This document shows, in pieces, positions 9,937 through 20,399 of a DNA stretch of 64,000 bases. The stretch is from the NCBI RefSeq assembly GCF_000344135.1, contig NZ_BAOP01000004.1, positions 1 to 64,000 on the forward strand, given 5' to 3'. Every line of letters starts with the position of its first letter. The first letter of the stretch is position 1. The notes below the pieces were generated by a model, which saw only the letters and a program-made list of their open reading frames with translations, was not told the DNA's origin and made no database searches. The stretch is from Gordonia malaquae NBRC 108250. Lineage in GTDB: Bacteria > Actinomycetota > Actinomycetes > Mycobacteriales > Mycobacteriaceae. Both the position numbers and the translations under genes were made by a program.

Positions 9937-10755
9937 TCAGCGCGACGGCTTCGGGCACGACGGATGGGCACCGGCGGCGACGAGGTCGGCGACGGCAGCA
10001 CGCGGATCACCCGACGTCACGAGGCCCTCGCCGACGAGCACCGCATCGGCGCCTGCGCCCGCGTACGCCAGCAGATCGGCGGTTCCGCGGACGCCCGACT
10101 CGGCGATCCGGACGATGTCCGACGGCAGGCCCGGCGCGATCCGAGAGAACACGTCGCGGTCCACCGTGAGGGTCTTCAGGTCGCGGGCGTTGACGCCGAC
10201 GACGCTCGCACCCGCTTCGAGTGCGCGGTTCGCCTCTTCTTCGGTGTGCACCTCGACCAGAGCTGTCATGCCCAGGGACTCGGTGCGGTCGAGCAGAGAG
10301 GCGAGCACCTTCTGCTCTAGAGCTGCGACGATCAGCAGAATGACGTCTGCGCCGTGGGCGCGGGCCTCATGAATCTGATACGGCCCGACGATGAAATCCT
10401 TGCGCAGCACCGGGATGTCGACGACGGCGCGGACGGCGTCCAGGTCGGCGAGCGATCCGTTGAACCGACGCTCCTCGGTGAGGACGCTGATGACTCGCGC
10501 CCCGCCGTCCTCGTACTGCTTGGCGAGGCTCGCCGGATCGGTGATGTTCGACAGCTGCCCCTTCGACGGGCTCGCACGCTTCACCTCGGCGATCACTCCG
10601 ATGTCGGGCATGCGGAGGGCGGCAGCGGCGTCACGCGGCTCGGGAGCCTTCGCGGCGAGAGCCTTGACCGCGGCCAGGTCGAGCACGGCTTCGCGCGCCG
10701 CGACGTCGGCCTTGACACCGTCGATGATCGAATCGAGCACTGACTGGCTGCTCAT
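9937..10755 (-). CDS. trpC: Indole-3-glycerol phosphate synthase
   Basis: TrpC closes the ring of the anthranilate-derived carboxyphenylamino-deoxyribulose phosphate to indole-3-glycerol phosphate. The 272-residue TIM barrel contains [13 protein letters not shown] with the catalytic Lys, [35 protein letters not shown] and IAESGV, all in order. It is a stand-alone enzyme, not fused to TrpF. The ATG has a GAAAGGGG ribosome site. It leads the trpCBA-lgt unit, facing away from the SWIM-domain operon. In related genomes, as remembered, trpE and its membrane-protein partner lie directly before it; here they are 9 kb away. Confidence 0.96.
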
Positions 10756-10785
10756 GCGGACGCCCCTTTCTCGCGCTGTTCATCA

Positions 10786-10791
10786 AGAGTA
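10786..10791 (-). promoter_or_regulatory. Putative -10 box for trpCBA-lgt
   Basis: TACTCT on the minus strand lies 30 bases before the trpC ATG, leaving room for a short leader with a GAAAGGGG ribosome site. No convincing -35 box was seen. If correct, trpCBA has its own promoter, which it would need because it is cut off from trpE. Confidence 0.35.
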
Positions 10792-10848
10792 AGCATCGAC
10801 GTGACGCCGGTCGGGGTCGGGGTCCCGACCGTTGTCGGACCGATGCCC

Positions 10849-10854
10849 TAGTGT
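10849..10854 (+). promoter_or_regulatory. -10 box of the SWIM/MoxR/VWA operon, probably leaderless
   Basis: TAGTGT lies 7 bases before the ATG at 10862, with no clear ribosome site in between. This supports both the start choice and a leaderless operon mRNA. The 106-base gap to trpC therefore holds two divergent promoters. Confidence 0.5.
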
Positions 10855-10861
10855 GCCGGGT

Positions 10862-12136
10862 ATGCCGTGGACACAGGAGCAGGTGATCGCCGCTGCGCCC
10901 GACGCCGCATCGGTCGCGGCGGGACGCAAGCTCGCCTCGCCCGGCCCGTGGTCGGGCACCGGCGCGACCGATGCACTCCTGTGGGGTTCATGCCAGGGCA
11001 GCGGGAAGAAGCCGTACCAGGTGAGCATCGACCTGACCGGTCCGGCGTTTCGATGCTCGTGTCCGAGCCGGAAGTTCCCGTGCAAACATGCGATCGCCCT
11101 GTTGCTGCTGTGGTCGGCGGGCGCGATCGCCGACGGCGAGGTGTCAGACTTCGCGTCGAGTTGGGCGGACGAGCGCGCATCGAAGGCGAAGACTCGTTCG
11201 AAGCCGGCGGCGCCCGTCGATCCGCAGGCGCAAGCCGCTCGTCGGGCCGAACGGGTCGCGAAGATGGACGCGGGCGTCGGCGAGTTCAGCCGGTGGCTGT
11301 CCGACCTCGTCCGCGCAGGCCTCGCGGAGGCTCTGCGCCGTCCCCTGCCGTGGTGGGAGACGACGGCGTCCCGCCTGGTCGACGCACAAGCGCCGGGTCT
11401 GGCCGAACGTGTCCGCGACACCGGAGCCGACGTCGTCGCCGGACTGGGCGCCGACGAATTGCTGGAGCGGATCGGGGTGTGGTGGATGCTCGTTCAGGCG
11501 TGGAACCGTCGCGACTCGTTGACGACATCCGAATCGGCTGATCTGCACGCTGCCCTCGGCTGGCCGACACCTACCGCAGAAGTCCGCGGCGGCGCCGTCG
11601 AATCACGCGTGTGGACGGTTGTCGGAGCTCATCGCGACCAGAAGGGCCGACTCGCTCAGCAACGCACTTGGCTCCGCGACGATGACGGCCGGTACCGACT
11701 CCTCCTGGAGACCGCCGGACCCGGCCAGTCCCTCGGCGTTCCCGCGCTGGCGGGCGCACGACTCCGCGCCGACCTCGCGATCTACCCCGGCGCCGAACCC
11801 TGCCGAGGCCTGTTCGTCGACACGCCGGAAGCCCTCGAACCTCACACGCGCTTCGGCGCCGGCCAAACCGTCGACGCGGCGTTGGCGGACGCAGCGACCG
11901 CGTTCGCCACGACACCGTGGCGGGACCGGCATCCGGTGATGCTGGCCGACGTCCGCTTCGGAGCCAGGCATGTCGTCGACCCGTCCGGTCAGTCGTTGGA
12001 GTTGGTCGAGGACACTCCGTCCACGGAGCTCGCAGCGATCAGCGGAGGCCGCGCCGATCATGTGTTCGGCGAACTCGACGGCGGCAGATTCCGTGTCCTC
12101 ACCGTCAGCGTCGACGGTCGAGTGGTTCCGCTGTGA
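10862..12136 (+). CDS. SWIM zinc-finger domain protein (YehQ-like), first gene of the MoxR/VWA operon
   Basis: The 424-residue protein has a SWIM zinc finger near its N-terminus: Cys65-x-Cys67, then Cys74-x-His76, in the order CxC...CxH that defines the family. SWIM domains bind zinc and are linked to DNA or protein binding. The remainder has no domain I can name, apart from a Lys/Arg/Ala-rich helical stretch near 110-140. An in-frame ATG at 10832 exists, but 10862 is preferred because of the TAGTGT box 7 bases upstream and its fit to the family N-terminus. The stop overlaps the next gene by 4 bases. E. coli YehQ, a SWIM protein beside a MoxR ATPase, DUF5682 and VWA protein, is the nearest parallel. 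Confidence 0.85.
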   Translation: MPWTQEQVIAAAPDAASVAAGRKLASPGPWSGTGATDALLWGSCQGSGKKPYQVSIDLTGPAFRCSCPSRKFPCKHAIALLLLWSAGAIADGEVSDFASSWADERASKAKTRSKPAAPVDPQAQAARRAERVAKMDAGVGEFSRWLSDLVRAGLAEALRRPLPWWETTASRLVDAQAPGLAERVRDTGADVVAGLGADELLERIGVWWMLVQAWNRRDSLTTSESADLHAALGWPTPTAEVRGGAVESRVWTVVGAHRDQKGRLAQQRTWLRDDDGRYRLLLETAGPGQSLGVPALAGARLRADLAIYPGAEPCRGLFVDTPEALEPHTRFGAGQTVDAALADAATAFATTPWRDRHPVMLADVRFGARHVVDPSGQSLELVEDTPSTELAAISGGRADHVFGELDGGRFRVLTVSVDGRVVPL

Positions 12137-13557
12137 CCGGAATCGCCGACTGGCATCGCGCGTTGTCGACGGCGGCCGTCCTCGGGACGGACCGGCGGCC
12201 GCCCCCACCGAACCCGCCGGGCTTCGTCGCGCGCCGCGACACCGAGTCGCCGCGGCTGCTGCTCGATCAGGCGGCGCTCGCCGCCGCACTGGTGAAGGCC
12301 GGACGCGTCGCAGGCGCCGAGGAGCCCGTCGACCCCGCGCCCCGCGAACGACTGCCGTATGCACCGGAGTCCGCGGTCCAACGACTCCGCACGCTCCTCG
12401 ACGTCCCGCCGGTTCCTCGGGAACTCCGGATGCATCTGCTGGCCCGATGGTTGCGCACCGCGGCTTCGCGGTCGGTCATCGTGCCGCCCGAGTTCATCCC
12501 CGCGCTGTCCGCGCACTCCGCCGGCAACCCAGACCTGCGCGCCGCACTCGCCGGCGTCTGGGGCGAACGCGGACGCTGGCTGGCACCGCGGCTCGGACCC
12601 GCTGCGGTCACTGTCGCCACCCTCTCCTCGGATGTCGTGAACGTGCCCGAACAGTGGCCCGCCCTCGCCGCACGCGAGAAGGAACACCTCCTGCGCGCAC
12701 CGGCGGACACCGTCATCGGCGTCGACGACTCGTTCCTCGACAGGTGCCTGGACGAGCGCGCGGCGCGCGTCCGAGACGCCGCTCGGGACGCACTCGCAGC
12801 ACGTCCGACGTCTGCGTTCGCACACCGGATGGCCGGCCGACTGTCGCGGCTGGTGGACGTCGAGGGGCCCCGCCGACGGCTCCTCGGATCGACCGACCTC
12901 GTGGTCCGGGTGCGTCCGCCGACCGACCTCGACGAGGCGGCGACCCGAGACGGGCTGCCCGGCGTCGCGACCGACGGCGACCGCGCGGCATCGTTGCGGG
13001 CCATTCTCCGGAGTGCACCCCTGCACACGTGGACCGCCGTCACCGAGTCGACGCCCGACCAGATAGTCCGTGCCCTCGCCGGCGACGACGTTGTGCTCGC
13101 TGCGATCTCGACCGCAGCCGTCACCCAGCGCGACAGCCTGTGGGCCGCCGCCCTCGCACCTCTCGCCGCGGCGCCCGGGCTGGTCGAGGTCCTCGACACG
13201 GCAGACCGGGAATCGTATGTGGTGTCCCGCCTTCCGAGCGCCCGACCGTCCGAGTTCACCGGCCTGGTCGACATGGCTGAACAGCCATGGTCGGCGTCCG
13301 TCGCCTCTGCCGTTCTCGACCGCCTCGCGTCGGCACGTGACGACGCGACGTGGGCGGCACTCCCCACGCTGCCGATCGGGCACGCCGCGCACTTTCCGCC
13401 GTCGCACCTCGGTCGTGTCCGCGCACTGCTCGACGCGCCCGAACCCTCTGGCGACAATCCTGTCACACGTGCGGCATTCGAACGCCGCCGTCGACTCCTG
13501 CACGCTACCGTCACCTTTCACGCTTTCGACCAGTCCATTCAGGAGGGCTTCGCATGA
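12133..13557 (+). CDS. DUF5691 family protein
   Basis: The 474-residue protein matches the DUF5691 family, found beside SWIM, MoxR and DUF5682 genes in actinobacteria. It is rich in Ala, Arg and Leu, with repeated short helices such as RVRDAARDALAARP and LRAALAGVWGERG. This suggests a HEAT-like helical scaffold, but that is my inference. No catalytic motif was found. The GTG start overlaps the upstream stop (GTGA); reading further back would lie inside the SWIM gene. It ends in an ATGA overlap with the ATPase gene. Its role may be to bridge the SWIM protein and the ATPase. Confidence 0.8.
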   Translation: MTGIADWHRALSTAAVLGTDRRPPPPNPPGFVARRDTESPRLLLDQAALAAALVKAGRVAGAEEPVDPAPRERLPYAPESAVQRLRTLLDVPPVPRELRMHLLARWLRTAASRSVIVPPEFIPALSAHSAGNPDLRAALAGVWGERGRWLAPRLGPAAVTVATLSSDVVNVPEQWPALAAREKEHLLRAPADTVIGVDDSFLDRCLDERAARVRDAARDALAARPTSAFAHRMAGRLSRLVDVEGPRRRLLGSTDLVVRVRPPTDLDEAATRDGLPGVATDGDRAASLRAILRSAPLHTWTAVTESTPDQIVRALAGDDVVLAAISTAAVTQRDSLWAAALAPLAAAPGLVEVLDTADRESYVVSRLPSARPSEFTGLVDMAEQPWSASVASAVLDRLASARDDATWAALPTLPIGHAAHFPPSHLGRVRALLDAPEPSGDNPVTRAAFERRRRLLHATVTFHAFDQSIQEGFA

Positions 13558-14678
13558 CCTCAGGGTCCGACCACCAGGCATCCGGCGAGTCCGCGGTCCT
13601 GCGCGCGCACGCCGAGCAGGCATACGCCGACGAACTCGCCGCCCTGGCCGCAGTCGACGACCGTCCGCGGCCGCCACAGTGGCAACTGTCGCCGTGGGCG
13701 GTGGCGACATATCTCCTCGGCGGAACGCTCCACGACGGGACGACGGTCAGCGCGAAGTACGTCGGTTCGCGACGTCTGATCGAGATCGCCGTGGCGTCCC
13801 TCGCCACCGATCGGGCATTGCTGCTGCTCGGTGTGCCGGGCACCGCGAAATCGTGGGTCAGCGAACACCTCGCAGCTGCGATCAGCGGCGATTCGACGCT
13901 GGTCGTCCAAGGCACCGCGGGAACCACCGAAGAGACCCTGCGATACGGGTGGAACTACGCGAGCCTGCTCGCGCACGGACCGTCCGACGGCGCACTCGTT
14001 CCGGGTCCGGTGATGCGTGCGATGCGCGAAGGCACCCTCGCCCGGATCGAGGAGCTGACCCGTATCCCCGCCGACGTGCAGGACACGTTGATCACGATCC
14101 TGTCGGAGAAGTCGCTGCCGATCCCCGAACTCGACGACGAGGTTCAGGCCCGCCGCGGATTCAACGTGATCGCCACCGCGAACAACCGCGACAAAGGCGT
14201 CAACGACCTGTCGTCCGCGCTGCGCAGGCGGTTCACCACCGTCGTCCTGCCGCTCCCCGACTCCCTCGACGACGAGGTCTCGATCGTCCAGGGCCGGGTG
14301 GCGAGCCTCGGCGCGTCCCTCGACCTGCCCGCCGACCTCGAGTCCCTCAGCGAGATCCGCCGGGTGGTGACGGTGATGCGAGAACTCAGGTCGGGGGTGA
14401 CCCACGACGGTCGGACGACCGTCAAGTCGCCGAGCTCCACTCTGTCGACGGCCGAGGCGATCTCGGTGATGACCAGCGGGCTGTCTCTGGCCGCGCATTT
14501 CGGCGACGGCCGGGTCGGGGCGGACGACGTCGCAGCCGGACTGCTCGGCGCCGTCGTCAAAGACCCTGTGCAGGATGCCGTCGTGTGGGACGAGTACCTG
14601 GAGACCGTCGTCCGCAGCCGCCCCGAGTGGAACGACCTGTACCGCGCGTGCCGCGACCTGGGCCCGGCTCGGGCGTGA
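13554..14678 (+). CDS. MoxR-family AAA+ ATPase (YehL-like)
   Basis: The 374-residue protein is a MoxR-type AAA+ ATPase. The Walker A loop GVPGTAKS is at 93-100. The Walker B region near 162-168 reads ARIEELT, with Glu where Asp is usual in AAA+ proteins. Sensor 1 is in IATANNRD (about 206-213) and the arginine finger in LRRRF (about 223-227). MoxR ATPases act as chaperones or remodelling machines and almost always pair with a VWA protein, here three genes on. AGGAGGG precedes the ATG, which overlaps the DUF5691 stop. Its N-terminal extension of about 45 residues before the core fits the YehL branch. Its substrate is unknown. Confidence 0.9.
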   Translation: MTSGSDHQASGESAVLRAHAEQAYADELAALAAVDDRPRPPQWQLSPWAVATYLLGGTLHDGTTVSAKYVGSRRLIEIAVASLATDRALLLLGVPGTAKSWVSEHLAAAISGDSTLVVQGTAGTTEETLRYGWNYASLLAHGPSDGALVPGPVMRAMREGTLARIEELTRIPADVQDTLITILSEKSLPIPELDDEVQARRGFNVIATANNRDKGVNDLSSALRRRFTTVVLPLPDSLDDEVSIVQGRVASLGASLDLPADLESLSEIRRVVTVMRELRSGVTHDGRTTVKSPSSTLSTAEAISVMTSGLSLAAHFGDGRVGADDVAAGLLGAVVKDPVQDAVVWDEYLETVVRSRPEWNDLYRACRDLGPARA

Positions 14679-16954
14679 CGGTCCGAGCGCTCGGAATCCG
14701 CCATCACGGCCCCGGATCGGCGCTGTCGGTGACGGCCGCACTCGAGCAGTTCGATCCCACGTTCGTGCTGGTGGAGGGTCCACCCGAGCTGACGCCCATC
14801 CTGCCGCTGCTGGCCGACGAGGCGATGGTCCCGCCGGTCGCCGGGCTCGTCTACGCGGTCGACGAGCCGCGTCGCGCCGGGTTCTATCCGCTCGCCGAGT
14901 TCTCCCCCGAATGGGTCGCGACGCGGTGGGCCCTCGCCCGTGGTGTCGACGTCGTGTGGGCCGACCTGCCCGCCGCACAGTCCCTGGCGATCCGGGCTGT
15001 CGTCGACGACTCGGCGGAACCCGCCGACGACAGCGGCCGGGCACACGTATCCGATCCCATCGGCGAACTCGCCCGGACCGCAGGGTACGACGATGCCGAA
15101 CGGTGGTGGGAGGACGCTGTCGAGCACCGTTCGGGTGACGCATCAGCCCAATTCGAGGCGGTCCTCGACGCGATCGCCGAACTCCGCCGCGACGAGCCCG
15201 AGGCGGCTCCGCTGCTGCGTGAGGACAAGACGGTCGACATCGCCGCGGCCTCCGATCCGACGGGCCCGTCGATCACCGCGGCACGCGAAGCCGCGATGCG
15301 TGCCGCGGTGCGTGCGGCCGTCAAGGCAGGCCATGATCGAATCGCGTTCGTATGCGGCGCGTGGCACGCGCCCGCCGTCGACCCGACGGCCGGGCGGTCC
15401 GCGGCAGCCGACAACCGACTGCTGCGAGGCCTGCCGAAGGTCAAAGTCGCGGCTGCGTGGGCACCGTGGACGGCGGCACGGCTGTCGCAGAGTTCCGGCT
15501 ACGGTGCCGGTGTCAACTCGCCCGGCTGGTACCGGCACCTGTACGCCTCCCGCCTGGCGGGTGACGATCCCGATGCGGCGGCCGCGTCGTGGCTGGTCAG
15601 GGTGGCACGCGAGCTGCGTTCCCAGGGCATGACCGCCTCCCCGGCATCGGTCGTCGACGCGACACGAGTGGCCCGGACCCTCGCGACAATTCGCGGCCGC
15701 CCGCATCCGGGCCTGACCGAGCTCGACGACGCCGCCCTCGCGGTGCTCGCCGACGGGGACCGGCTGCCGCTGTCTCTGGTCCACCGCGATCTCGTCGTCG
15801 GCTCGGACATCGGCGGTGTCCCCGACTCGGCACCCCTGGTTCCACTGGCCGCCGACATCGGCCGTCAGCAGAAACGGTGCCGACTCAAGCCCTCCGCACA
15901 CGCACAGACCGTCACGCTCGATCTCCGCACCGACGGCGGCCGAGCGCGGTCGGTGCTCCTGCATCGACTCCTGCTGCTCGATGTCGACTGGGGCGAACAA
16001 GCCGACAGCGGACGCACCACCGGCACGTTCAAGGAGACGTGGACGCTCGTCTGGGATCCGGGCCTCGCGGTCGCAGTGGTCGAGGCCGCCGTGTACGGCA
16101 CCACTGTCGTCGACGCCGCGTCGGCGAGGGTGGCGTCGGCCGCTGAAACGGCAACCGCCCTCGCCGACCTGTCCGCACTCGTCGATCGGTGCATGACCGC
16201 CGACCTTCCGACACACGACGTGGTGCGAGTGCTGGCCGACCGGGCCGCCGCACACACCGACGCCCCCGAACTGCTCGGTGCGATCGAACCGCTGGCGCGC
16301 ATCTGCCGGTACGGGACCGTCCGCCGAGTCGACACGACTCGAGTGCGTGCCGTCCTCGATCAGGTGACGGTACGTGCCGGCATCGGTCTGCCGTCGGCGG
16401 CCGTCGCCCTCGACGACGATGCGGCGGCCGCGTTGCGGACGGCGGTCGACTCCGCGCACCGCGGCCTGATGATGCTCGACGATGAACTCCTCACGGCTCG
16501 GTGGTTCACGTCCCTGCGGGAGGTGACCGACCGGGACCGTGTGCCCGGGCTCCTCGCCGGGCGTGCGGTTCGCATCCTGCTCGACGCCGGACACCTCGAC
16601 CGCGACGATGTGGAACGGCGGATGAGCCGGGAACTGTCGCGTGCGTCCGATCCTGTCGGCGCAGCAGCTTGGCTGGACGGCTTTCTCTCCGGCGATGCGA
16701 TGATCCTCGTGCACGACGCAGCGCTGCTCGGCGTCGTCGACCGGTGGGTGTCCGACGCACCTGTCGAGACTTTCGACGACCTTCTGCCGCTTCTGCGCCG
16801 CACGTTCTCCGCGTTCACGACCGCAGAGCGGCGGTCGATCGGCCAGACGATCGTGCGCGGCGGGTCGAACGATTCGACCGCGGTCGTCGACGAGACCCGA
16901 GCCGCACCCGCGATCTCCACGGTCGCCCGACTCATCGGATGGGAAAACGCATGA
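14675..16954 (+). CDS. DUF5682 family protein (YehM-like)
   Basis: The 759-residue product is a DUF5682 protein. The N-terminal part begins with the conserved GIRHHGPGSA motif, followed by FVLVEGPPE, and around residues 220-240 carries FVCGAWHAPA. The His and Glu residues in these motifs recall metal-dependent folds of the TraB/EreA/ChaN type, but that link is speculative. Then comes a patch with AAAWAPWTAARLS and GWYRHLY. The C-terminal half is helical, with Asp-rich segments and no recognised motif. The GTG start overlaps the ATPase stop (GTGA); the long in-frame reading upstream is a shadow of the two previous genes. In E. coli the counterpart yehM sits between the ATPase and VWA genes, as here. 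Confidence 0.85.
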   Translation: MTVRALGIRHHGPGSALSVTAALEQFDPTFVLVEGPPELTPILPLLADEAMVPPVAGLVYAVDEPRRAGFYPLAEFSPEWVATRWALARGVDVVWADLPAAQSLAIRAVVDDSAEPADDSGRAHVSDPIGELARTAGYDDAERWWEDAVEHRSGDASAQFEAVLDAIAELRRDEPEAAPLLREDKTVDIAAASDPTGPSITAAREAAMRAAVRAAVKAGHDRIAFVCGAWHAPAVDPTAGRSAAADNRLLRGLPKVKVAAAWAPWTAARLSQSSGYGAGVNSPGWYRHLYASRLAGDDPDAAAASWLVRVARELRSQGMTASPASVVDATRVARTLATIRGRPHPGLTELDDAALAVLADGDRLPLSLVHRDLVVGSDIGGVPDSAPLVPLAADIGRQQKRCRLKPSAHAQTVTLDLRTDGGRARSVLLHRLLLLDVDWGEQADSGRTTGTFKETWTLVWDPGLAVAVVEAAVYGTTVVDAASARVASAAETATALADLSALVDRCMTADLPTHDVVRVLADRAAAHTDAPELLGAIEPLARICRYGTVRRVDTTRVRAVLDQVTVRAGIGLPSAAVALDDDAAAALRTAVDSAHRGLMMLDDELLTARWFTSLREVTDRDRVPGLLAGRAVRILLDAGHLDRDDVERRMSRELSRASDPVGAAAWLDGFLSGDAMILVHDAALLGVVDRWVSDAPVETFDDLLPLLRRTFSAFTTAERRSIGQTIVRGGSNDSTAVVDETRAAPAISTVARLIGWENA

Positions 16955-18105
16955 CCGACCCGATCACCCGGTGGCGACTGATCTTGGGCGGCGGCGACGC
17001 CGACGGAACGGGCGTCTCGTCGACCGAACTGTCCGTCGACGACGCCGCGCGCGACCGCGTGCTCGGCGAGGTCTACGACGCCCCACGCCGCGGCGCGGGG
17101 CTCGGTGGATCCGCGCCGCGGGTCGCCCGGTGGCTCGGCGACATCCGGCAGTACTTTCCGGCGACGGTCGTCCGCGTGATGCAGGGCGACGCGATGGACC
17201 GACTCGGACTGCGGCAGTTGCTCCTCGAACCCGAGATGATGGCGGCGGTGACACCGGACATCCACCTGGCGACCACGCTGCTCGAGCTGAAGTCGGCGAT
17301 GGACGACGTCACCCGTGAGACGGCCCGCCAGGTGGTTCGGGCGGTCACCGACGAACTGGAGAAGCGGCTTCGCGATGCGACCGTGCAGGCGGTGAGCGGT
17401 GCGATCGACAGGTCTGCCCGCACCCGCAGACCACGCCCGGCCGACATCGACTGGAACCGCACGATCGCGGCGAACTTGAAGCACTATCAGCCCGAGTATC
17501 GGACGGTGGTGCCCGAGCGGCTCGTCGGCTACGCCCGACGGCGATCACACGTGGAACGCGACATCATCTTGTGCATCGACCAGTCGGGGTCCATGGCCGA
17601 ATCTGTGGTGTTCTCCAGCGTCTTCGGCGCGGTCCTCGCGTCACTGCGATCGGTGCGCACCCGGCTCGTCGTGTTCGACACGTCGATCGTCGACCTCACC
17701 GACGACCTCGACGATCCGGTCGACGTGCTGTTCGGCGTCCAACTCGGCGGCGGCACCGACATCAACGGCGCCCTCGCCTACTGTCAATCGCAGATCACGA
17801 GGCCTGCCGACACCGTGCTCGTCCTGATCAGCGACCTCTACGAAGGCGGCATCGCCGAGGAGATGCTCGAACGCGCTCACGCAGTCGTCGAGTCGGGTGC
17901 GACGATGGTCGCGCTGCTCGCACTGTCCGACTCCGGCGCACCGTCGTACGATTCCGGCCACGCCGCGGCTCTCGCCTCGATCGGCGTCCCCGCGTTCGCG
18001 TGCACACCCGACCTGTTTCCGGACATGATGGCCGCCGCGATCGAACGGCGGGACATCACCGAGTGGGCTTCTGCGAACGACATCGTGACCGCCCACGAAC
18101 GTTGA
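16951..18105 (+). CDS. VWA-domain protein (YehP-like), partner of the MoxR ATPase
   Basis: The 384-residue protein has a helical N-terminal half (1-200) and a C-terminal von Willebrand A domain. The metal-ion-dependent adhesion site is intact: Asp210-x-Ser212-x-Ser214 in IDQSGSM, then Thr in GGGTDIN, then Asp in VLISDLYEGG. In MoxR systems the VWA protein is the adaptor through which the ATPase acts on its target, as in RavA-ViaA and magnesium chelatase. There is no signal peptide or membrane segment, so the complex should be cytoplasmic. The ATG overlaps the DUF5682 stop. It is the last gene of the operon and overlaps the opposing small gene by 50 bases. Confidence 0.88.
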   Translation: MTDPITRWRLILGGGDADGTGVSSTELSVDDAARDRVLGEVYDAPRRGAGLGGSAPRVARWLGDIRQYFPATVVRVMQGDAMDRLGLRQLLLEPEMMAAVTPDIHLATTLLELKSAMDDVTRETARQVVRAVTDELEKRLRDATVQAVSGAIDRSARTRRPRPADIDWNRTIAANLKHYQPEYRTVVPERLVGYARRRSHVERDIILCIDQSGSMAESVVFSSVFGAVLASLRSVRTRLVVFDTSIVDLTDDLDDPVDVLFGVQLGGGTDINGALAYCQSQITRPADTVLVLISDLYEGGIAEEMLERAHAVVESGATMVALLALSDSGAPSYDSGHAAALASIGVPAFACTPDLFPDMMAAAIERRDITEWASANDIVTAHER

Positions 18106-18397
18106 GACACGACCAGACCGAGGAGCCGTTCGTCCGGGAAGTCGAGGACTCCGTCGGGTAGATCGAACGCCCACCCCGCCAGGAGGTCGTCGAGGAATCC
18201 TTCGCGGGGTCCACGCCCGGGTCGCGCTGCTCGTACCACGCCTCCATGTCGCGGAGCACGTCGTTTCCATCGTCCGAGCCGAACGGCGCGAACTCGTCGG
18301 TGGCACTGTAGAACGACTCCGGCGCGAGCGCGACGAAACGCGGGTGGCTGGTCTCGGGTCGCGGCGATTCCGCGGCGTCGTCGATGTAGATCGTCAT
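18056..18397 (-). CDS. Small acidic protein, unknown, probably frameshifted
   Basis: The reading frame starts with a good GGAG site and an ATGA overlap with the upstream gene, and gives a plausible acidic protein for about 70 residues (MTIYIDDAAE..., LRDMEAWYEQRDPGVDPAKD). The sequence then turns into Ser/Thr/Arg-rich text without character. Another frame, from about 18196 downward, reads FLDDLLAGWAFDLPDGVLDF and continues sensibly, so one base appears to be missing near 18196. Corrected, the protein would continue to around or into the end of the opposing VWA gene. I do not recognise the family. A real mutation and a sequencing error are equally possible. Confidence 0.55.
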   Translation of the reverse strand: MTIYIDDAAESPRPETSHPRFVALAPESFYSATDEFAPFGSDDGNDVLRDMEAWYEQRDPGVDPAKDSSTTSWRGGRSIYPTESSTSRTNGSSVWSCLNVRGRSRCRSQKPTR

Positions 18398-19725
18398 GTC
18401 GTCTCCTGTCCAGACAAATCGAAGACCTGGTTGTACAGCGGCTTGAGACCGTCTGGACCCTTGGCGACGATCGACACCGCACCGCGGTCGGAGTCGGCAT
18501 CCCGGCCCCACAGCGCAAACAGCGCGGCGCGCCACGCGAAATCCGTTCCACGCAACGCGAGGAGCGCACCGAGGGAGTCGGGATTCGCCATCATCGCCGG
18601 ATACGTGGAACGGTGACGGAGATGTTGGATGTTCCCGGCGCAGGCGACCAGGTAGGCCAGTGATTCAGGGGTCGCACCGTGGGAGTCGATGTACGCCTCG
18701 ACGAACTTCGCCTGCAACGACTGGTGTTCGCCGTCGACCAGTTCCAGATAGTCGCGTACCAGCGGCGCGAACCGTCGATCCGCCATCCCGAGCGCGAACA
18801 CCGCGAATGTCCCCGGCATAGCGCACTGCTCGTCGTGGAGATTCTCGTACCAGGCGTCCTCGCGCATCGCCGAGCGCGCGTACCGCTCGATCAATTCGTG
18901 CAGTTCCGGGTGTCTCGCCGCTGCGGCGAACAGTTGGTGGACGCCCTTCTTCGGCAGTCCCTTGATCGGGAGGCACACCTTCGTCGGCCCTCGGAACTCG
19001 ATCGCATAACTTCGCGGAAAGTCTGTCGAGTCCACAAGCCGCACGAGGTGGTCGAGGACGACTTCGTACACCTGTGCGGAGTCGTTCCTGATCACAATGC
19101 GGATCACCGCCACCGCGTCGTTGGCCGTGATCGTGACGTCGTCGGTCTGCAGGCGTGCCAGATCAGCAGGAAGGTCACCACTGCCGTGCTTCTTCAGCCG
19201 GCCGGGCAGGTCGGAGCCGAGCGCACTCACCCAGCCGAAGATCCGGTTCGCCGACACCGACGCGTAGCTCGGTCCGTGCTTGAGTTCACCGATCGCGATT
19301 CGGCACGCGAAGTCGTAGAACGAGTAAGGAACACCGCTGGTGTCCGCCTCGGGGCGCAACACCCACTCCTGGTCCCAGTCCCGTCCCCTGTTGACGAAGT
19401 ACGGTGCGCCGAGCCGACGTTCCACCCACATCTGGAGCTGATAGTCCATCTCGTTCCACCCGATGAGGAGTCGCAGCCGTTCGACGAACGCCCACGCGGA
19501 GTCTGCATCGAACGTCTCAGCCGGCCCCGCACCGACACCGACCCGGTATTCGAGCAGTCCACTTCCGAGGATCTTCTGACCGTCGGTCACGACGCCGACA
19601 GGGTACGCGGCGTCGACGACCGCGGTACCGGCCTCGACCTGTTCGACGGCGCGGTCGAACAGAGCGCGCACAGCCGGGTCTTGCTGGGCATCACCGACGA
19701 TCAGGTAACCGCGGCTGGTGGCCAC
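18394..19725 (-). CDS. Uncharacterised 443-residue protein at the end of the his-trp unit
   Basis: I do not recognise this protein with confidence; DUF6138 is a guess I cannot check. It has no signal peptide or membrane helix. Visible traits are a mixed alpha/beta N-terminal half with conserved-looking aromatic stretches (WNEMDYQLQMWVERR, RDWDQEWVLRPEADTS, YSFYDFACR) and a helical C-terminal half. The GTG at 19725 sits 2 bases after the stop of the Trp-associated membrane protein; the longer reading would run inside that gene. It ends in an ATGA overlap with the small frameshifted gene. Its place after trpE does not show a link to tryptophan, because the block next to it looks inserted. Confidence 0.75.
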   Translation of the reverse strand: MATSRGYLIVGDAQQDPAVRALFDRAVEQVEAGTAVVDAAYPVGVVTDGQKILGSGLLEYRVGVGAGPAETFDADSAWAFVERLRLLIGWNEMDYQLQMWVERRLGAPYFVNRGRDWDQEWVLRPEADTSGVPYSFYDFACRIAIGELKHGPSYASVSANRIFGWVSALGSDLPGRLKKHGSGDLPADLARLQTDDVTITANDAVAVIRIVIRNDSAQVYEVVLDHLVRLVDSTDFPRSYAIEFRGPTKVCLPIKGLPKKGVHQLFAAAARHPELHELIERYARSAMREDAWYENLHDEQCAMPGTFAVFALGMADRRFAPLVRDYLELVDGEHQSLQAKFVEAYIDSHGATPESLAYLVACAGNIQHLRHRSTYPAMMANPDSLGALLALRGTDFAWRAALFALWGRDADSDRGAVSIVAKGPDGLKPLYNQVFDLSGQETT

Positions 19726-19727
19726 CG

Positions 19728-20399
19728 TCAGTCGTCCGTCGGATCCACACCGCTGTCGAGCGAGTCCCACATGAGTCGCTCATTGCCGTCTGCGGCGCCC
19801 GGAGTGTCGACGTTCCCCTCGGCGGCGAGACGACGCTCGCGTTCGGCGAACACCTTCTTCTCCAGTTCCTCCTGGCGGGCGGCCGGTGAGGTGTACTTCG
19901 ACGACATGCCCCGGGCCGACGCCCCGCGCATCATCAGCACGGCCGCGATCACAGCGCACAAGGCGCCTGCGAGCAGCAGGTAACCGGGCGACGTGCTCAC
20001 GGTGACGGCCTCGATCTTGTACCGCCCGGGGATGTCGATCCGGGTCGAGGCGTACAGGTCGTCCGCGCCGTCCCTGATCAGAGTGAACGCCGGAACGGCC
20101 GACAGGACACCGGCGACCGCGATGATGACGGCGACCACCCGCAGCGCCCAGCCGCGGACCGCGAACTGGGCGATGACACCCGCGCCGAACAGCGCGGCGA
20201 CACCGGTCAACCATGGGCTCCAGTCCGACCCGAGCACCTCGAACACCCGTGGCAGCGACAGCCCGTCGGCGCCGAGCACCTCCGCCCACTTCATCCGCGA
20301 CGATCCCCACAATGCGCCTGCCGCCGCGATCAGCAGCAGACTCGCGATGCCCTGGAGGCGCCGGTTCGGCTTCGGGTGGTCGGTCGTGTCATCGCTCAT
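19728..20399 (-). CDS. Trp biosynthesis-associated membrane protein (TIGR02234 / Trp_oprn_chp)
   Basis: This 223-residue membrane protein is the actinobacterial tryptophan-operon protein known from the gene between trpE and trpC (Rv1610 in M. tuberculosis). It shows four hydrophobic segments, at about 15-32, 62-80, 85-105 and 140-158, with a loop carrying [17 protein letters not shown] charged C-terminal tail follows. Its function is unknown. The ATG overlaps the trpE stop (ATGA), so it is coupled to trpE. In this genome it is no longer followed by trpC. Confidence 0.88.

Follow-up and report, generated by a model that had tools for sequence, protein, structure and literature searches.

What is the function of an operon that joins a MoxR-type AAA+ ATPase and a VWA protein to a SWIM zinc-finger protein and to members of the families DUF5691 and DUF5682? 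The question is raised by a five-gene cassette on the plus strand (10862-18105) of the window, that is, the whole stretch of DNA analysed here, 64,000 nucleotides from Gordonia malaquae NBRC 108250 (contig NZ_BAOP01000004.1, positions 1 to 64,000). The genes encode, in order, a SWIM zinc-finger protein of 424 amino acids (aa) (10862-12136; Pfam SWIM, 28.5 bits), with the SWIM motif (PF04434 match) at residues 64-82 (11051-11107), a DUF5691 protein of 474 aa (12133-13557; 235.8 bits), a MoxR-type AAA+ ATPase of the YehL type, 374 aa (13554-14678; AAA_5, 133.9 bits), a DUF5682 protein of 759 aa (14675-16954; 775.1 bits) and a VWA protein of the CoxE type, 384 aa (16951-18105; VWA_CoxE, 192.2 bits). 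A preliminary description, made from the sequence alone, had reported five plus-strand genes with 4-base overlaps, an ATPase with intact Walker A, sensor 1 and arginine finger, and an intact VWA metal site. The coordinates confirm the layout, with a 4-base overlap at each of the four junctions, all five families score above their Pfam cut-offs, and every motif listed there was found: GVPGTAKS as Walker A, stretches for sensor 1 and the arginine finger, and, for the metal site of the VWA protein, DQSGSM, GGTDI and ISDL. We lean, with some reserve, towards reading the cassette as a protein machine induced by DNA damage, in which MoxR-VWA would remodel a hydrolase of predicted TIKI fold that SWIM/DUF5691 targets; the regulatory part of this view has the best support, whereas catalysis, contacts and target are parts that we infer.

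The cassette is a conserved five-gene unit. Of the 571 relatives that a DUF5682-profile search of genome contigs returned, the best 80 make up the named loci; the closest of these to the window DUF5682 is that of Gordonia zhenghanii (68% identity). The preliminary description would have been undermined by families that do not co-occur elsewhere; they recur together at every one of the 58 named loci that are 20 kb or longer and at 66 of the full set of 80, the loci having been chosen by DUF5682 and the five-family profiles seeded from the window proteins and partly built on the same loci. Each of the 14 loci with an incomplete set is shorter than 20 kb. The named loci include Actinomycetota, Cyanobacteria, Chloroflexi, Planctomycetota, a Chthoniobacteraceae bacterium and Proteobacteria. 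Among 296 genomes of the phylum, 21 encode DUF5682, and the 18 with DUF5691 above the cut-off all fall within those 21 (hypergeometric probability 4.7e-26, kinship ignored); three further genomes have DUF5691 matches under the cut-off, without DUF5682. Walker A is kept in all 97 MoxR sequences (window included), and the DQSGSM motif in 91 of 96 VWA sequences. Walker B, on which the preliminary description is silent, is usually Asp-Glu; in the same 97 of 97 sequences, as in E. coli YehL, its position reads Glu-Glu (EE). The window MoxR also has a bpMoxR match, below the Pfam cut-off.

The regulatory evidence starts at 10832-10854 (plus strand), where a PafBC/RecA-NDp-type promoter motif, TTGTCGGAC-CGATGCCC-TAGTGT, ends 7 bases before the SWIM start codon. 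It matches tTGTCRgtg-8 nt-TannnT at nine of the nine scored positions. In mycobacteria this consensus marks a DNA-damage promoter that works independently of LexA and is linked to PafBC, although ClgR has been proposed to read it too; the window shares both the motif and the exact spacing of these P1 (PafBC/RecA-NDp) promoters (PMC5656591). The same element emerged from related cassettes. In 26 of the 80 loci, from Streptomyces and related genera, DUF5691-SWIM and MoxR-DUF5682-VWA form two divergent halves, and alignment of 20 divergent intergenic regions yielded a conserved pair, CCACTGACAAT...ATTGTCAGTGG, that matches the mycobacterial damage-promoter motif. We scanned upstream of the 64 loci with a complete SWIM start (23 divergent, 41 collinear). 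On the SWIM side of the divergent loci, the strict motif with its 11-base spacing is present in 21 of 23; on the MoxR side it is present in none of 23, or in 22 of 23 once C is tolerated as the first -10 base; this relaxation was chosen post hoc. Random windows gave 20 strict and 70 relaxed matches in 5,220. At spacings 4-18 other than 11 the strict motif was not found, and the relaxed form occurred at 5/23 loci with spacing 4 (MoxR side) and at 1/41 with spacing 12. Three of the 41 collinear loci carry the strict motif and 18 reach at least 8 of 9 positions, a cut likewise chosen post hoc, whereas the remaining spacings between 7 and 15 give 0-3 loci and random windows 11 of 1,640. These 18 are 18 of the 21 Actinomycetota outside Micrococcales, a split drawn from record titles once the matches were known. 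Two sister cassettes at the site of the window cassette score 9 (L185) and 8 (L184). A LexA-type alternative was rejected, the GAAC-N4-GTTC core being present in none of the 64 upstream regions.

Several observations weigh against the damage-response view. The 'gtg' part of the consensus reads gac in the window. The motif was derived from 20 of the 23 divergent loci subsequently scanned, and the relaxation and the cut followed the data, so that the counts are not fully independent tests; nor are the loci independent, being mutually related. The motif scores below 8 of 9 in all 10 Micrococcales and all 10 non-actinobacterial loci. A third sister cassette, L183, scores 9 with the spacing one base short, and of seven cassettes at other sites in the genus one scores 8, four score 7 and two score 6, so that six of seven fall under 8 (L192, with its cassette at a contig edge, was excluded). 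Among 22 loci with the variant architectures described below (classes II-IV), 12 have no usable strict motif; by a lenient measure it lies at most 100 bases from some in-frame start of the first gene in 7 of 22 and at 250-559 bases in 3 of 22, and counted from where the gene probably begins (the start of the BLAST match minus the residues missing from it) it lies within 100 bases in 3 of 22 (L046, L196 and L258) and at about 180-630 bases in seven. The 27-kb yeh region of E. coli contains no CTGT-N8-ACAG LexA-box core, and a Deinococcus-type palindrome had no match in the one Deinococcus plasmid locus scanned.

A rival explanation is that the motif is a general actinobacterial promoter or a chance match, and the cassette an ordinary protein-folding machine with no tie to DNA damage. 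The -10-like half, TAnnnT, is common to many promoters, the motif is missing in whole groups, and the wider regulon scan covers a single genome. Against this stand the need for the 11-base spacing and the outcome of that scan: in the genome of the window (4.47 Mb, 115 contigs), TTGTCRG-N10-TANNNT has 23 matches, versus 4 for the backwards control. Downstream genes, taken as the longest frame starting at most 120 bases from the motif and named from their Pfam matches, were assigned at 20 of the 22 other matches (L231 and L248, each with a 16-residue frame only, were left out), and six of the 20 are of repair type, namely recA, uvrA, uvrC, DNA polymerase I, RadA and a DnaQ-type exonuclease; one encodes a T5orf172/GIY-YIG-type protein and 13 have other or no Pfam matches. 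The position of the motif before recA-, uvrA-, uvrC-, polA- and radA-type genes is a further likeness to the P1 promoters of mycobacteria (PMC5656591). The genome also encodes Pup and, 3.4 kb after it, two adjacent WYL genes which, from their place, are presumably pafB and pafC. On balance, this rival explanation appears highly improbable, and we regard damage-type regulation of the window operon as very probable on the strength of these motif comparisons.

Weaker links to damage come from the domains themselves. Both SWIM and WGR are present in DNA-repair proteins of eukaryotes. In Deinococcus radiodurans, a DUF4132 operon and a WGR-domain gene are reported to be raised when the DdrO repressor is depleted, and not in irradiated cells lacking irrE (PMC8533742); DUF4132 and WGR are partner families of class II, described below. 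Separately, the proteins listed as lowered when pafBC is mutated in Mycobacterium smegmatis include two MoxR proteins and a 'von Willebrand factor', MSMEG_5511, which are at most candidate members of a DUF5682 system; the term 'SWIM' does not occur in that paper (PMC5656591). A search with the VWA protein gave matches in 50 of 200 genomes of the order.

The architecture of related loci indicates how the machine might be built. The MoxR-DUF5682-VWA trio recurs without DUF5691, and it is the core of the cassette, kept in the variants seen. In class II, the trio is accompanied by DUF4132 and by a SWIM or SWIM-related gene, with DUF4132 fused to WGR in L046; members are E. coli yehF-yehI-yehL-yehM-yehP-yehQ, an Iodobacter plasmid and the actinobacterial loci L044, L046 and L194-L196. 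In class III (L043 and L045), DUF5682 and VWA are fused and the gene before MoxR encodes a very large protein that Pfam does not recognise, whereas in class IV (L048-L050) another protein without a Pfam match is followed by VWA-MoxR-DUF5682. SWIM and DUF5691 share one reading frame in L036, L047, L071, L097 and L129. Of the 80 named loci, nine lack SWIM, 26 have it on the strand opposite to DUF5682, and in 45 the two share a strand. Judging by the divergent arrangement and by both types of fusion, the cassette appears to comprise two physical modules, and adjacency and fusions make a MoxR-VWA-DUF5682 complex probable. The suggestion in the preliminary description that DUF5682 is a partner of MoxR-VWA is backed by the recurrent trio and by the two DUF5682-VWA fusions. 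As separate observations, MoxR and DUF5682 are separated by a small hypothetical gene on a Hymenobacter plasmid (L227) and on a Deinococcus plasmid (L226), and a TerD gene follows the class IV DUF5682 in L048 (L048:6134-7618) and was dropped as a linked gene since it was not found at L049 or L050.

The preliminary description had also pointed to E. coli yehLMPQ as holding the same gene types, and this likeness proved sound. As in the window, MoxR, DUF5682, VWA and SWIM genes form one run; YehM, at 23% identity to the window DUF5682, shares H10, H11, E34, E79, E205 and H231, and the EE Walker B recurs in YehL, as does the metal site of the VWA protein in YehP. Unlike in the window, WGR (yehF) and DUF4132 (yehI) genes come first and the SWIM gene last, and DUF5691 had no match in the E. 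coli control genome. To our knowledge, neither YehL nor the yeh operon has a settled role. No study of the function of the yeh operon was among the literature matches listed, and no paper naming DUF5682 or DUF5691 was found in the literature searched. YehL itself is a named MoxR subfamily (PMC3893208).

If the core is a remodelling machine, DUF5682 is a candidate client. Its N-terminal domain (residues 1-245; 14675-15409, plus strand) is predicted, from a structural model and structure comparison, to adopt the hydrolase fold of TIKI, Ere and ChaN. Of the ten best structural matches seven have this fold, and the other three are to a ciliate subunit, probably of the TraB family. The C-terminal part (residues about 482-730; 16118-16864, plus strand) is helical and repeat-like, and a PDB search with the whole model gave mostly helical-repeat matches. 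All 55 class I sequences (a set from which L099 and L107, with open ends, and two late-starting profile matches were dropped and 22 of 76 removed as redundant) agree at nine residues, H10, H11, E34, E79, D97, E150, R204, E205 and H231, and so do an 18-row set that includes paralogues and a 10-row set that includes YehM. Judged from the ends of the structural alignments, residue 1 of the model pairs with EreC residue 40 and BcR135 residue 75. Provided that the first strand is gap-free, H11 coincides with His-85 of BcR135, whose catalytic pair is named as His-85 and Glu-113; E34 then comes after strand 2 like Glu-113, with a loop five residues shorter, and H231 lies within a late GxxH motif. A predicted fold, a His after strand 1, a Glu after strand 2 and a late GxxH are shared with the TIKI/TraB, Ere and ChaN superfamily (PMC6254334), from which DUF5682 differs in the missing first Glu, in its long helical C-terminal half and in its tie to an AAA+ machine.

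Other observations count against the assignment. The first Glu of the 2His/2Glu set is absent, with none before the first His, and we therefore call the domain a fold relative rather than an Ere or TIKI enzyme. Foldseek alone gave no PDB match below E 0.08 for the domain, and hhalign against 13 Ere-family proteins found nothing (probability 1.1). Nor did Pfam, run on 55 domain sequences, give a match supporting TIKI, or a PDB profile search with the domain any sequence match. With the sequence-level tests failing, the fold assignment is one of structure comparison. We consider it likely but unproven that the domain carries an active site, and put the chance that DUF5682 is a working hydrolase at about even.

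The working model for the MoxR-VWA pair is taken from NorQ-NorD, in which the VWA domain inserts a finger into the ring and NorD is remodelled by the ATPase so that metal can be inserted (PMC13036017). Under the damage-response reading, DNA damage would cause a PafBC-type (or ClgR-type) activator to switch the operon on, and the MoxR ring, docked via the VWA protein as in NorQ-NorD, would remodel DUF5682, setting the His/Glu site, loading a metal or releasing the domain from the helical tail. Guided to damaged nucleic acid by SWIM-DUF5691 (or, in the E. coli type, by SWIM and WGR/DUF4132 proteins), the activated hydrolase might then attack a protein, or another ester or amide target, there. 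The partnership with DUF5682 survives from the preliminary description, which had missed the hydrolase-type fold, the two-module build and the DNA-damage-type promoter; with these three features a damage-response system becomes the likelier biology than an undescribed chaperone. SPRTN and p97 form a eukaryotic pair, and a bolder version of the model would make the cassette its bacterial counterpart, a damage-induced MoxR-VWA unfoldase with a TIKI-type protease, DUF5682, guided by SWIM-DUF5691 or WGR/DUF4132 to clear DNA-crosslinked or stalled proteins, with E. coli yehLMPQ as a second form; this we judge very unlikely.

Would an assembly role without a repair target explain the cassette as well? 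NorQ-NorD and CoxD-CoxE (PMC13036017) resemble it in pairing a MoxR ring with a VWA partner, and the window VWA is of the CoxE type. By analogy, MoxR-VWA might put a metal or haem into DUF5682, which would be a housekeeping or stress enzyme with DNA damage as one trigger only. However, the cassette differs from these systems in its extra SWIM, DUF5691 and DUF5682 proteins, it does not contain their known clients, nitric oxide reductase and CO dehydrogenase, and none of the five genes is, by Pfam, a known metalloenzyme or cofactor gene. Such a cofactor-insertion chaperone seems unlikely to us. A conflict or suicide system is another way to account for a damage-inducible hydrolase: phage or other damage would induce the cassette, and the hydrolase would kill or arrest the cell. 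MoxR-vWA-X ternary systems are described as conflict systems, with the classes VMAP, iSTAND, FtsH and beta-propeller (PMC7159879), and the cassette resembles them in combining MoxR, vWA and a third protein and in its patchy spread, here 21 of 296 genomes of the phylum and 15 of 37 genomes of the genus, at several genomic sites within that one genus. Matches also occur in 36 plasmid-collection records, one of them next to a type I restriction system. Unlike in the ternary systems, the third protein is DUF5682, with a predicted TIKI-type fold, the promoter is of damage type, and the window VWA protein has no further domain beyond VWA (Pfam); the terms SWIM, DUF5682 and yeh do not occur in the main text of that paper.

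A defence role, for which the preliminary description had proposed a look at defence-island neighbours, is not supported so far. PADLOC gave no match for any of the five cassette proteins, and no defence family was evident among the recurrent neighbours, in the 40 largest clusters of flanking frames, which were not scanned with PADLOC. The clusters of up to 25 loci reflect Streptomyces-type synteny only, adjoining a gene that reads as a succinyl-CoA ligase subunit, and the small clusters that reach other genera (5-6 loci) appear generic by eye (protein kinase, short-chain dehydrogenase). A defence system was rejected on these grounds, and with recurrent synteny in Streptomyces-type loci and a promoter motif common to repair genes, a conflict system is quite unlikely. 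The parts of the cassette are of known kinds, and the combination, fold and regulation are new as far as the literature was searched, DNA-damage transcriptomes lying outside that search. The DUF5682 fold with its candidate active-site residues, the two-module build and the damage-type promoter make an orphan operon directly testable, and E. coli K-12 carries a relative of the MoxR-DUF5682-VWA core; if the damage-response reading is true, many Actinobacteria would have a common AAA+ machine in their DNA-damage response.

The cassette lies inside the trp operon, with trpC (9937-10755, minus strand) on one side and DUF6138, a Trp-associated membrane protein and trpE on the other; in the window (9937-20399), the cassette and the DUF6138 gene part trpE and the Trp-associated membrane protein gene from trpC-trpB-trpA. 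The same junction, measured in 34 of 36 other genomes of the genus, spans at most 449 bases in 29, holds a cassette in three and other inserts in two. DUF5682 is beside trpC in 4 of the 15 same-genus genomes that encode it. With few cassettes at trpC and DUF5682 elsewhere in the genus, the cassette is apparently gained, moved or lost readily. DUF6138 was rejected as a member, not being found at L183-L185. The two other trpC-junction inserts, L180:6486-12503 and L182:6954-9692, contain, by eye and with names unverified, a sigma factor, a DJ-1-like protein and a methyltransferase in one case and a UvrA-like ATPase in the other, and the junction may be an insertion hotspot.

Among 50,697 phage-collection records, the sole DUF5682 match is MT835988.1, labelled as a faecal bacteriophage, with a near full-length relative (27.6% identity, 95% covered); the record may be a misbinned bacterial contig. 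On the Methylosinus plasmid pOB3b3 (L131), insertion sequences and a toxin-antitoxin pair lie near the cassette, the VWA gene of which, not in the gene table, was recovered by tblastn.

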